A DNA stretch of 32,496 nucleotides, taken from Candidatus Brocadiaceae bacterium (GTDB lineage Bacteria; Planctomycetota; Brocadiia; Brocadiales; Brocadiaceae). The notes beneath the pieces are model-generated. The model did not search any database. It worked only from the letters and a program-made list of their open reading frames with translations, and had not been told where the DNA came from. The translations under genes were made by a program, and so were the position numbers. The stretch covers positions 1 to 32,496 of the forward strand of contig JACVXV010000011.1 of assembly GCA_015661205.1 (NCBI GenBank), in the 5' to 3' direction. Position 1 is the first letter of the stretch. Every line of letters begins with the position of its first letter. Positions 1-30,405 of this stretch are shown one piece after another.

Positions 1-990
1 CTCGTTAATCCACTGTTCAGCTTCGAGACAAAGACATCAAAATAACCACCATTAAAGGAGGTATCATAAGCACCGTTCGTCGTCGGAAAGCTTGTTGAAT
101 AAGTATACCCTGCCACATATACGTTCCCGCTTGTATCGAGGGCAAGGGATCCACCATAATCAAAACTACCAGCGCCCAGGTACGTTGATGCCTGCAGTCC
201 CGTTAATCCACCGTCCAACTTTGAGATAAAGACATCACTATAATAAACACCACCATTCTGAGAGGTATCGTATGCTCCGCTCGTCGTCGGAAAGTCTATT
301 GAATCAGTCCCTCCTGTTACATAAACGTTCCCGCTTGTGTCGAGGGCAATAGAATTACCCCAATCACCATAAGACCCACCCACGAACGTGGATGCTAGCA
401 TGCCCGTTAATCCACCGTTTAGCTTCGAGACAAAGACATCACATTCACCACCATTAAAAGAGGTATCATACGCTCCGCTCGTCGTCGGAAAGTCTGATGA
501 ATAAGTCACCCCAGTCACATATACGTTCCCGCTTGTGTCGAGGGTGAGAGAAGAACCCTTTTCACCATTAGACCCACCCACGAACGTGGATGCCAACAGG
601 CTCGTTAATCCACTGTCCAGCTTCGAGACAAAGACATCATAAGAACCACCATTAAAAGAGGTATCATACGCACCACTCGTCGTCGGAAAATCTGTTGACC
701 AAGTATTCCCCGTTACATAAACATTCCCGTTGATGTCAAGGGTGAGAGAACAACCTTCATCGTGAGAACTCGAACCGCCCAAGTACGTGGATGCCAGCAG
801 GCTTGCTAATCCACTGTCCAGCTTCGAGACAAAGACATCATTCCAACTATTATAAGCGGTATCATAAGCACCGCTCGTCGTCGGAAAGTCTGTCGAAGAA
901 GTACGCCCCGTCACATATACATTACCGCTTGTATCGATGGTGAGAGAAGTACCATTATCACTACCAGACCCGCCCAGGAACGTGGATGCC
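1..990 (-). repeat. Tandem ~190-210 bp coding repeats (SBBP units)
   Basis: Five near-identical units lie head to tail, with starts near 990, 800, 610, 400 and 190 reading leftward. Each contains CTCGTCGTCGGAAA (plus strand) and CGTGGATGCCAGCA-like blocks. They encode the SBBP propeller units, and their DNA-level similarity points to recent duplication or gene conversion. Confidence 0.8.
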
Positions 991-3014
991 AGCAGAGGGT
1001 CGATGATGAGGTCTTTGGTTTTGTCGTAGGAGGCGACGGTGAAACAGTATTCGGATTTTGGATTTTGGAATTCGGAATTTGGATTTGGGGAATCGGAGGT
1101 TGTTGATTTTGGATTTTGGGAGGGGTAGGATGGGTTAAGCGAAGAGGACCCATCAAACCCATCAAAATTGCAGGTGACATCATTTTCATATTTCAGCGCC
1201 TCGTTTTCTGCCGAAGGCACGGACAAACAGGGTTTGTCCATGCCACCCGGAATGCCTTCCTTTGTGTTCTTTGTGTCTTTGTGTGAGATATGTTTTTCGC
1301 TTCTTTCCTCTATTCTGTATTCAACTGCCACCTCCACCCTTTTCCCATCAATCTCCTGATACGCCACGGGCTTTGTGAATTTGACGAGACCAAGCTCTGT
1401 CTCCGCTACAAGCTCGCCGGAGTTGTTTATCTGTAATTTTGGATTTTGGAATTTGGATTTTGGACATGCTATTCCGCACTCCGCATTCCGTACTCCGCAA
1501 TCGTTCACTCCGCTCAGACTAATCTTAATCTGACCCGGGTCTGCCCCTGGCTTCACGTCTTGTAGAGACGTCCCCGCCGGGGCGTCTGTCCTCTCCGCCC
1601 CATTAATAAAGGTGGATACAGGGGGTTGTATGCCACTCAATCGTATTTTTATTTGTTCCGGACTTGCCCCTGGTTTTACGTAAAGGAGTTTTTCCACAGT
1701 ATTCCCATGCGCCTTTAATTTGAGTTCAACCCCCTCATAAATCTCGCCGAGGTTTACCATTTCATACGTGGAGATGTTACTCCTCCATTTGGACGGGTCG
1801 TTCCCCTTGAAACAACTGACCTTCGTGACGGACTCGCCCTCGCCCCTTATCCCCAAAACCCTTGCACCAACAAATTCCTCTTTCAGCGCAACACCGGGGA
1901 CACGGCTCGCCGTGTCCCTACGCGCAACGGTTGCGGCAACACGGCCCGCCGTGTCCTCACATAAATTAACCGTAGGGACACGGGGCACCGTGTCCCTTCC
2001 TTTCGTGGAATCGGTCGCACGCAAGCCCATTAACCGCCCATCCGACACACAATCCCCAAACCAAGACACATAATCCATGATGCGCGATTCACGTTTCTCC
2101 TCCACCCCGCCCACCACATCCCCTTTGGCCGAATGCATTACATACGCAAGGTATTGTATGGGAGAGGTGGGGACACGGCGCGCCGTGTCCCTTCCTCTCG
2201 TGGAATCGGCCACACGTAAGCCCATTAACCGGCCATCCGGCGCGCAACCCTCAAACCCCTGCCCCTCCGCTTCCCTGCTCCCCTGCCCCACATAATAAAG
2301 AGACGCATGCAATGCGTCTCTACAAACCCCATAAAGAGACGCATGCAATGCGTCTCTACAAACCCCCTGCCTCCAGCCTCTTCCTGATTCCTGAGACGCC
2401 CCGGCGGGGACGTCTCTACCGGACGGCAATGAATACACAATTTCGCCGTTTTTCGTGACAAACACCGTGCCTCCGAACGTCCTGGCGTAAAATGCCACGC
2501 TTTCATCCACCTGCCCTTCATTGGCGATAAAAGGCATCTGGAGTTTCTGCATCTTTTGGATGATTTCGGGGTGGTCTGCCGATGCGTTACCCGCAGACGG
2601 GTTCGAGGAGGGATTTGGGAATTTGGATTTTGGATCTAAAAATTGGGGGGATGGTTTGTCGGTATTTGAGGTTTGTGTTTCTGCGACCTCCACGGTTGAA
2701 CACGAGGACACGGGGATGCGTGATTCTGCGACCTCCTCGGTTGCACACGAGGACACGGGGCTCCGTGTCCCTACGACGGCCTCGGACATACGTGGGGATA
2801 TGGGGGGTTGTGATTCTGCGACCTCCTCGGTTGCACGTAGGGACACGGCACGCCGTGTCCCTACGACGGCATCAGCCACACGTGGGGGGACGTTGATTTG
2901 TGTTCCGGCAACAACGGGATCTCCGTGACCATTTCAGGCGAGGAAGATGGTGGATAAAAATACTGCTAAAATAATAACCACGACAATTCCAGGACGTCCA
3001 TTCCACCTATTCAT
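1..3014 (-). CDS. Secreted DUF7948/SBBP beta-propeller repeat protein, partial, with in-frame TGA
   Basis: This is the N-terminal part of a large secreted protein that leaves the window at base 1. ATG at 3014 follows an AGGAGG site and encodes a signal peptide (MNRWNGRPG, then IVVVIILAVFLSTIFLA). Codon 27 (2936-2934) is TGA, after which the same frame stays open to base 1. The mature part has a low-complexity linker, a DUF7948-like segment (PFIANEGQVDESVAFYART, about 2540-2480), more linker, the hinge YDKTKDLIIDPLLA, then about five SBBP repeats of 60-65 residues (LASTFLGGS...LDTSGNVYVTG...DFPTTSGAYDTS...DVFVSKLDSGLT). The family forms beta-propellers, usually extracellular; its ligand is unknown. 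At least ten palindromic or short-word repeats are translated within the linkers. The TGA may be a true nonsense mutation or a base error. No good start with an RBS is seen just after it. Confidence 0.8.
1049..1125 (-). repeat. Low-complexity CCAAAATCC / AATTCCGAATT repeat, translated in frame
   Basis: This is a run of near-repeats of TTTGGATTTTGG and TTCGGAATTTGG. On the minus strand it is read in frame as NPKSTTSDSPNPNSEFQNPKSEY. The same word family occurs at 1434-1466, 2612-2640 and 30026-30094. Confidence 0.7.
1434..1504 (-). repeat. Low-complexity repeats (TTTGGATTTTGG and CCGCACTCCGCATTCCG words)
   Basis: Two adjacent short-word repeats lie inside the SBBP gene: a TTTTGGATTTTGG run and a GCACTCCGCATTCCGTACTCC run. 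They are read in frame as CGVRNAECGIACPKSKFQNP. Both look like dispersed intergenic repeats that have become coding. Confidence 0.65.
1563..1589. repeat. GTAG-type hairpin repeat (AGACGTCCCC core), in frame
   Basis: GTAGAGACGTCCCC is followed by its inverted copy GGGGCGTCT. It is translated within the SBBP linker as DAPAGTSLQ. A second copy in inverted orientation lies at 2393-2419. Confidence 0.7.
1896..1998. repeat. Three GGGACACGG...CCGTGTCCC hairpin repeats, in frame
   Basis: Copies lie at 1896-1921, 1935-1960 and 1972-1998. Each pairs GGGACACGG (or a variant) with CCGTGTCCC over a short centre; the third begins GTAG. All are read through by the SBBP frame as RRDTASRVP, EDTAGRV and GRDTVPRVP. 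Confidence 0.75.
2169..2194. repeat. GGGGACACGG...CCGTGTCCC hairpin repeat, in frame
   Basis: This is a perfect GGACACGGCG/CGCCGTGTCC palindrome inside the SBBP gene, encoding GRDTARRVP. The flank AGPLMGLR-ADSTKG-like coding sequence is also duplicated around the copy at 1972-1998, so element plus flank was copied as a block. Confidence 0.7.
2295..2366. repeat. Two tandem 36-bp hairpin units, in frame
   Basis: Two exact 36-bp units (2295-2330 and 2331-2366) each hold the palindrome AGAGACGCATGC/AATGCGTCTCT. On the minus strand they encode GVCRDALHASLY twice. The unit length is a multiple of three, so the duplication kept the frame. Confidence 0.85.
2393..2419. repeat. GAGACGCCCC...GGGGACGTCTCTAC hairpin repeat, in frame
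   Basis: This is the inverted partner of the element at 1563-1589. It ends in CTAC on the plus strand and is translated as GRDVPAGASQ. Confidence 0.7.
2749..2864. repeat. Two GGACACGG...CCGTGTCC hairpin repeats in the SBBP linker
   Basis: Copies lie at 2749-2774 and 2837-2864. The second is a near-perfect palindrome running from GTAGGGACACGG to CCGTGTCCCTAC. Surrounding coding sequence (CTGCGACCTCCTCGGTTGCAC) is also repeated, giving an in-frame ATEEVAES-type repeat in the protein. Confidence 0.75.
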
Positions 3015-3330
3015 TTTCCAAATCCTCCTAAATGGTTTAAACGGGGGGGGACACGGGCACCGTGTCCCTACGGGTGGCGATGTGCGTGTTTACACAATCA
3101 CCGGTGTTTGCGGATGATGGCGTTCCAACCAATATTGACATGTGTGACATTATCTCACAGCAGATTCGAATTTGCAACTGGAACCTTACGTTTTGTGTGG
3201 TTGATTATTCGTTAATTGTATCAGGTTTTATTACACATATTATTTTTGCAAACCCGTTGGAATTGTTTGACGACGGGACACGGGCACCGTGTCCCTACGG
3301 ATGGTTAGGCGTGTTTACACAATCGTGCTA
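3015..3330. other. Intergenic gap with two copies of an extended hairpin repeat
   Basis: This is the divergent-end spacer between the SBBP gene and the EamA gene. Copies of GGGACACGGGCACCGTGTCC lie at 3047-3071 and 3275-3299. Similarity continues past each into CTACGG(G/A)TGG and GCGTGTTTACACAATC, so the repeat unit is about 60 bp. The ~200 bp between the copies shows no gene I can support. Confidence 0.6.
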
Positions 3331-29465: not shown

Positions 29466-29672
29466 AATGAAAATTCCTATGATCCGGATGTTTGCTTCGG
29501 AAAACCCTGCATTCGTGGTACTCGTATCTGGGTATTACTAATCCTTGATTTCCTGGCCGGCGGTATGAGTATTGAGGAGCTTCTTGCAGAATATCCTCAA
29601 CTGACGGTGGAAGACGTTCGGGCATCCATTGCTTATGGAGCAGAGATGGCTTGGTTTAATCGAACGGCTTGA
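29466..29672 (+). pseudogene. DUF433 antitoxin-like protein, 5' end lost
   Basis: The frame reads YDPDVCFGKPCIRGTRIWVL, LILDFLAGGMSIEELLAEYP, QLTVEDVRASIAYGAEMA to TGA at 29672, matching DUF433 proteins almost from their first residues. In-frame TAA at 29463 precedes it with no ATG, GTG or TTG before the domain; ATG 29467 is one frame off, so an indel or 5' loss is likely. DUF433 usually pairs with a DUF5615 toxin, absent here. Its 3' end runs directly into the methylase remnant. Confidence 0.8.
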
Positions 29673-30405
29673 CGCCAATCGTGAGGCATGCCAATCCGGC
29701 GTTTACAACGAGACCCAACTCCGGCGCGAGTTCATTGACCCATTCTTCAATGCCCTTGGCTGGGACGTTGACGACAAACTGCTCAAGGATATCATCAGAA
29801 ACCTGTACTATCCCGACAGCCCGTACGAGTTCTCCGTCCTGTCTGCCGACATCCTCGGCCAGGTCTACGAACAGTTTTTAGGCAAGGTAATTCGCCTCAC
29901 GGCAGGCCACCGCGCCGTAGTGGAGGATAAGCCGGAGGTAAAGAAGGCAGGAGGTGTTTACTACACGCCGTCCTACATTGTGGACTACATCGTGAAGAAC
30001 ACGGTGGGGAAACTCCTGAAAACCGAAATCCAAAACTCGAAACTCGAAACTCGAAATTCGAAATTCGAAATTCGAAATCCGAAACTTAAACTGAATGATG
30101 TTTCTAGAATCCGCGTCCTCGATCCCGCCTGCGGCTTCGGCTCGTTCCTGCTGGGCGCGTACCAGTGCCTGCTTGACTGGCACACCGCGACTGGTACGTT
30201 GCCGACGCCCCGGAGAAGTGGGCGACGGGCAAGAATCCCGTCCTGTACCAGGCGCAGGGCGGCGGTTGGCGGCTGACCACCGCCGAATGCAAACGCATCC
30301 TCCGAAACAACCTCTACGGCGTGGATGTTGACCCGCAGGCCGTCGAGGTAACCAAGCTGTCGCTCCTCCTGAAGGTGCTGGAAGGAGAATCCGAGCAGAC
30401 CACAA
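29640..30405 (+). pseudogene. Eco57I-type (type IIG-like) adenine methylase, heavily deleted
   Basis: Fragments appear in family order. The N-terminus is YNETQLRREFIDPFFNALGW, DVDD. An in-frame deletion follows (about 29775) that removes the nuclease and linker regions. Then come LSADILGQVYEQFLGKVIRL, KKAGGVYYTPSYIVDYIVKN and motif I DPACGFGSFLLGAYQ. After LDWH the frame shifts near 30180 at a CACAC stretch; the other frame continues RDWYVADAPEKWATGKNPVL, LRNNLYGVDVDPQAVEVTKL and SLLLKVLEGESEQ. Motif IV (NPPY) and the rest are missing; downstream to 30626 the frame has no recognised homology. A low-complexity repeat is inserted in frame before motif I. It is non-functional. Confidence 0.85.
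30026..30094 (+). repeat. AATTCGAAATTCGAAA low-complexity repeat, in frame
   Basis: About seven near-copies of a CGAAACT/CGAAATT word are read as TEIQNSKLETRNSKFEIRNP within the methylase, between VGKLL and the segment leading to motif I. The same word family occurs in the SBBP gene. Confidence 0.75.

Follow-up and report, generated by a model that had tools for sequence, protein, structure and literature searches.

Dispersed REP hairpins and heptad words translated in frame in the loops of a DUF7948-SBBP protein family of the Brocadiaceae

Background

What allows a single gene to hold about 11 hairpin repeats of four cores, together with runs of short repeated words, in a reading frame that stays open for 959 codons? 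The question is raised by one end of a contig of Candidatus Brocadiaceae bacterium (assembly GCA_015661205.1, genome G000), of which JACVXV010000011.1, positions 1-32,496 (C42), is the window, i.e. the whole stretch of DNA analysed here. On its minus strand an ORF for a DUF7948 and SBBP beta-propeller protein (3..2879) runs from a GTG at 2879 until it exits the contig end, and its product matches Pfam PF25778 (155.1 bits) and five copies of PF06739 (136.3 bits), both above the cut-off. The initial annotation had counted at least ten in-frame hairpins and about 970 open codons, both borne out by our counts, while its three hairpin cores become four. It further took the product for a secreted protein and proposed, by analogy with the protein-coding palindromic elements of Rickettsia, that such repeats build disordered linker sequence.

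Results

The hairpins and word repeats of the focal gene are confined to four linkers, and the rigid conserved blocks and the propeller are without them. Linker 1 (2547..2933), which follows the signal peptide, contains 45/90-bp repeats and two GGGACACGG hairpins, and linkers 2 to 4 are situated inside DUF7948: linker 2 (1887..2429) with hairpins, a 36-bp tandem duplication and a 91-bp duplication, linker 3 (1422..1631) with a AGACGCCCCGGCGGGG hairpin, an incomplete copy of the terminal part of block B and heptad words, and linker 4 (1044..1319) with a GGACAAACAGGGTTTGTCC hairpin and word repeats (CTTTGTGTT and GGATTTT heptads). They separate the DUF7948 blocks N (LQMPFIANEGQ...GEIVY; 2430..2546), B (LKEEFVG...IKIRLSG; 1632..1886) and Q/F/R (1320..1421), and the last of them is followed by block T and the SBBP repeats (3..1043), which are free of dispersed repeats; all these segments are given on the minus strand.

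Palindromes of at least 10 pairs number 7 in the focal gene, against a mean of 0.085 and a maximum of 2 in 200 shuffles. The most frequent hairpin, F1, has the core GGGACACGG-N4-CCGTGTCCC and is present in five clear copies on the minus strand, three of them translated as RDTASRVP (1897..1918), RDTVPRVP (1975..1996) and RDTARRVP (2170..2191), and the other two as VGTRSPVS (2750..2771) and, in a copy with complete GTAG...CTAC feet, VGTRRAVSL (2840..2861). Only the two F1 reading frames that avoid TAG (VGTRxxVS and RDTxxRVP) are used. A decayed F1-type hairpin lies at 1936-1961, and a further F1 hairpin with a 3-nt loop is located upstream of the native start codon (3048..3068, minus strand). 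The remaining hairpins are two of the AGAGACGCATGCAATGCGTCTCT kind (2299-2321 and 2335-2357), an F4b hairpin (GAGACGTCCCCGCCGGGGCGTCTC type, core AGACGCCCCGGCGGGGACGTCTCT; 1564..1587, minus strand) and its inverted copy (AGACGCCCCGGCGGGGACGTCTCT type; 2394..2417, minus strand), and an F7 hairpin GGCATGGACAAAC...GTTTGTCCGTGCC (core GGCACGGACAAACAGGGTTTGTCCATGCC; 1216..1244, minus strand). Arrays of 7-bp words occupy 1049-1119, 1436-1464, 1471-1499 and 2611-2635. Some of this content has been copied on the spot: the frame-preserving 36-bp unit noticed in the initial annotation is a 100% identical pair (2295..2366, minus strand), each unit of which holds a AGAGACGCATTGCATGCGTCTCT hairpin and is read as GVCRDALHASLY, the 91-bp unit is duplicated at 86% identity, and linker 1 is built of 45/90-bp units. 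Hence, several hairpin copies arose by local duplication, and the independent insertions number fewer than ten. As a separate observation, the F1 loop is 4 nt long in 5/5 focal copies (1897-2861) and in 12/50 copies elsewhere, the other 38/50 having 3 nt. The uniform 4-nt loops of the focal copies would be explained most simply by local duplication from a single source copy.

The main hairpin families of the genome, F1 to F5, share the consensus GTAG...CTAC, with one tag at each end; the GTA..TAC feet are intact in 16/50 non-focal F1 copies and most of the others retain one foot. A search for the F1 pattern, which counts copies with a 4-nt loop only, found 24 sites in the genome and 0 with the reversed control. 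The hairpins are thus GTAG-tagged palindromes of 20-40 bp, with a high copy number and a mainly intergenic location, and a RAYT gene is flanked by the same REP; they belong to the double-footed GTAG class of REP elements. Among five Y1_Tnp genes in the genome, the RAYT of contig C285 carries F1 and that of C168 carries F3, both in the gene flanks and, in frame, immediately behind the HUH motif (L031 812-832 and L054 1589-1619, respectively). The in-gene F1 copy of C285 has decayed and is readable as CRDTAPVSP and GGGACACGGCGCCCGTGTCCC, and a 78-bp segment made of hairpin plus tail is common to this RAYT gene and linker 1 of the focal gene (82% identity). The C168 protein scores 87.0 bits against NF047646 (REP-associated tyrosine transposase, curated cut-off 80), and the C285 protein, which is interrupted by its insert, scores 68.5 bits, under that cut-off. 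Homologues of the C285 protein are found in 29/33 genomes of the family, Candidatus Brocadia included, and across the family 10/13 of the intact HUH-to-Y spans inspected contain an in-frame hairpin of the GTAG...CTAC type; a scan of genome contigs returned only three Candidatus Brocadia loci. The link to a RAYT thus holds for two hairpin families, F1 and F3, and no RAYT matching the F4 or F7 families was found in the genome. That two hairpin families reside in the RAYT genes of one genome is a side observation, and the in-gene placement itself has been published for subclass 2.4 TnpA-REP, in which the segment from HUH to Y contains an in-frame double-foot REP with GTAG and CTAC ends (Quentin et al. 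2018, PMC6006769). The C285 and C168 RAYTs share this signature, as judged by hairpin features.

We then placed these hairpins in a sample of 530,589 bp of the genome with 416 predicted genes (75% coding). Of the 147 hairpins in this sample, 132 are intergenic and 10 belong to the focal gene; another 2 overlap a gene end and 3 fall within weak ORFs (64-94 aa). None of the 137 non-focal hairpins lies in any other confident gene of the sample, the genes being called by a simple codon-usage script that could miss repeat-containing ones. Thus, with 132/137 of the other hairpins intergenic, the focal gene family is the exception, and a genome-wide protein-coding role for the hairpins, as the parallel with Rickettsia had implied, is rejected on this sample. 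The word repeats are divided between the focal gene (6/14) and intergenic sequence (8/14). Hairpin density in the sampled counts is about 1 per kb in intergenic DNA versus about 7 per kb in the focal linkers, the sampled contigs having been chosen partly from repeat-hit lists, which inflates density and leaves location unaffected. Further, 73 matches of the focal gene to intergenic sequence cover linkers 1, 2 and 4, with 0 in the blocks or the SBBP part.

Two other observations deserve mention. A scan for repeat coverage revealed one more gene in the window with in-frame heptads (KTEIQNSKLETRNSKFEIRNPKLKL), an N6 adenine methylase-like ORF (29629-30276, plus strand; PF02384, 25.3 bits) that has them just before DPACGFGSFL, stops soon after this motif and seems truncated or frameshifted. 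A dispersed repeat of about 57 bp (TGCCGACCATAAAGGCCGGCGCTGCAAAAAAAGCCGTTGCCGTAGGCGACCTAATT) recurs in L046, L038, L044, L051, L041 and L035, the 5' end of a predicted ferredoxin-like gene being one of its many sites.

Comparison with orthologues, which the initial annotation had proposed, revealed that some of the repeats are absent from them. Across 25 DUF7948 genes from this genome and its family, four blocks of 117, 255, 102 and 75 nt align without gaps, and the linkers vary in length (195-591, 99-570 and 74-354 nt). In the nearest homologues (L091, L092 and L102) the signal peptide runs straight into block N; hence, the focal gene has gained its linker 1 by insertion. The insertion sites are the same across genera of the Brocadia family and each lineage fills them with its own dispersed repeats, which in the relatives are visible as other peptides, such as CHSERSEES, NPPLEKGGF and HGQALLVRA. 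In two of these relatives (G024 and G012) the linker hairpins have dozens of dispersed copies, which often form inverted pairs, about 30-110 bp apart in the copies read.

An AlphaFold model of the intact paralogue L024, of low overall confidence (mean pLDDT 54.5), gives pLDDT values of 74-81 for the strands and about 30-38 for linkers 2 and 4, and places the linker 3 site at a turn between strands 218-223 and 227-230; in insert-less paralogues this site is a tight turn. These predictions fit tolerant loops. A Foldseek search of the paralogue model against the PDB gave no match at E <= 0.001. The initial proposal on disordered linkers survives in part: in this planctomycete the linkers in which the repeats are read in frame are predicted to form turns or to be disordered, but a general coding role finds no support.

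The state of the focal copy is less simple. Its native start is an ATG at 3014, preceded by a Shine-Dalgarno sequence (AGGAGG, 3024-3029), and opens a signal peptide MNRWNGRPGIVVVIILAVFLSTIFLA (2937..3014, minus strand) of 26 codons that ends at an in-frame TGA (2934..2936, minus strand), where the orthologues have a sense codon (LAEHGHKGKPS). For the GTG at 2879, no Shine-Dalgarno sequence is evident. As the TGA splits the signal peptide from the ORF, the secreted nature of the protein derives from its homologues and is not encoded by the assembled copy, which would not make a secreted protein; the focal copy may have been recently silenced or misassembled. The blocks are nevertheless under purifying selection: dN/dS between the focal gene and its nearest homologue L091 is 0.12, and the changes private to the focal gene are 16 synonymous and 4 nonsynonymous, the neutral N:S ratio being 2.77. 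Hence, the focal blocks were constrained up to the recent past, which excludes an old pseudogene.

Discussion

Taken together, we consider it likely that a few loops of the DUF7948-SBBP family tolerate the insertion of REPs and words, that selection removes the insertions which break the frame, and that the family as a whole serves as a repeat sink. Resident RAYT (HUH tyrosine) transposases would spread the double-footed GTAG REPs, heptad words would form a second class of dispersed short repeats, and selection would purge inserted copies from almost all genes. The DUF7948-SBBP family would be the exception because a few loops that join beta strands of DUF7948, as well as the segment following the signal peptide, would accept almost any peptide. 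A copy landing there would survive if its net length is a multiple of three and it is not read in a TAG-containing frame, and surviving copies would grow by local duplication, so that each gene would end with its own mosaic linkers. The inserted peptides would be neutral, and the family secreted. Several observations count against this reading: the RAYT link does not extend to F4 or F7, the heptad words have no known mover, the methylase-like ORF also carries heptads in frame, and the protein may no longer be made from a focal gene with a TGA after its signal peptide.

The TGA, like the linker frameshifts of four paralogues (C64, C152, C130 and C123), also favors a pseudogene reading, in which repeats would accumulate without counterselection in the focal gene and, perhaps, in half of the paralogues that this genome contains. 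Of the 25 homologues, 18 keep the frame through their linkers, including one (G011) with a later stop in the SBBP part, and 7 are broken: six by a net linker frameshift (the four paralogues, G024 and G025) and one (G029) by stops within linker 4. Frame disruption, which the initial annotation had named as a test of its reading, is frequent, and always in the linkers. Not one of the seven breaks falls in the DUF7948 blocks, which make up half of the length, and with a linker share of 0.504 this distribution has a chance of about 0.008. Together with this bias, 959 codons open through about 11 hairpins, the dN/dS value and the 16:4 ratio allow at most a very recent loss. We hence regard general decay of these genes as unlikely.

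Selected diversification or phase variation is possible. In its broadest form, the DUF7948 linkers would be selected landing sites, with the influx of REPs and heptads acting as a generator of diversity and, through 7-bp slippage in linker 4, as an on/off switch, a proposition that we view as quite doubtful. The first component, by which insertion in loops would be selected for building or diversifying the surface linkers of a secreted family, agrees with insert sites that are shared between genera and differ in content in almost every gene, and with the expansion of the family (11 matches in this genome and up to 11 in relatives). But many paralogues are minimal, linker 3 having only 99 nt in 11/25 homologues, and the inserts are the same repeats as those in intergenic DNA, which makes selection for insertion improbable.

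The second component would make these genes phase-variable contingency loci, whose frame is switched by slippage of the 7-bp arrays in linker 4. The three linker-4 frameshifts coincide with heptad arrays: all three paralogues of this genome broken in linker 4 have arrays of 4-5 copies, one of them 4.0 perfect copies of TCCGAAA. Moreover, in all six net frame breaks the linker length is 2 modulo 3, as expected from the loss of one 7-bp unit. Most arrays are, however, short and degenerate, and 3/6 breaks lie in linker 2, which has no demonstrated array of this kind, so that we hold phase variation to be very improbable.

That the TGA and the frameshifts are assembly or sequencing errors merits hardly more than a passing thought, for the breaks cluster in the linkers, indel errors do not typically take the form of a TGA substitution and the repeats are genuine, as many contigs contain copies of them, even if the conserved adenosine-specific kinase nearby (PF04008; 4351-4832, minus strand) changes frame exactly between profile positions 61 and 62, either by real decay or by an assembly indel, which keeps a sequence error in the focal gene possible.

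Returning to the repeat sink, its closest precedents are the GTAG-tagged REP palindromes of 20-40 bp known from several phyla, which are mostly intergenic and in some cases translated in frame (Di Nocera et al. 2013, PMC3733652). Like these, the focal hairpins are GTAG-tagged, mostly intergenic across the genome, and in frame in the gene. The published in-frame REPs, however, are scattered over unrelated genes, many of them for DNA replication and repair, whereas the sampled hairpins within confident genes are all in one family, in a few fixed loops and together with heptad words. The focal gene also differs from the subclass 2.4 case in encoding a host protein and not a transposase. The Rickettsia palindromic elements (RPE) likewise place palindromic repeats in frame in protein genes; the intragenic repeats of R. 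conorii are of the CGTC type (RPE-4 and RPE-6), not GTAG, and occur in diverse genes (PMC3733652), in contrast to the insertion seen here, which is found only in the tolerant loops of a single family. The inverted hairpin pairs of G024 and G012 are reminiscent of REPINs, the likeness lying in the pairing of hairpins. As in-frame REPs outside Rickettsia have been published, including those in RAYT genes, the parallel drawn in the initial annotation is not new. Searches of the literature on the peptide words and on palindromic repeats of anammox genomes turned up no publication that describes either. What is new is that, in several genera of a single bacterial family, the loops of one paralogous group are the principal place within genes where many unrelated repeat families reside.

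A practical consequence is that words like NPKSEIRNPKSE, RDTVPRVP or CHSERSEES, when met in the annotated proteins of such genomes, may stem from dispersed DNA repeats and need not mark conserved domains. More generally, this expanded family of anammox bacteria offers a natural experiment in which non-coding mobile hairpins turn into protein sequence: with rigid blocks next to repeat-filled loops, the rates of insertion, duplication, frame loss and survival are measurable against intergenic copies.
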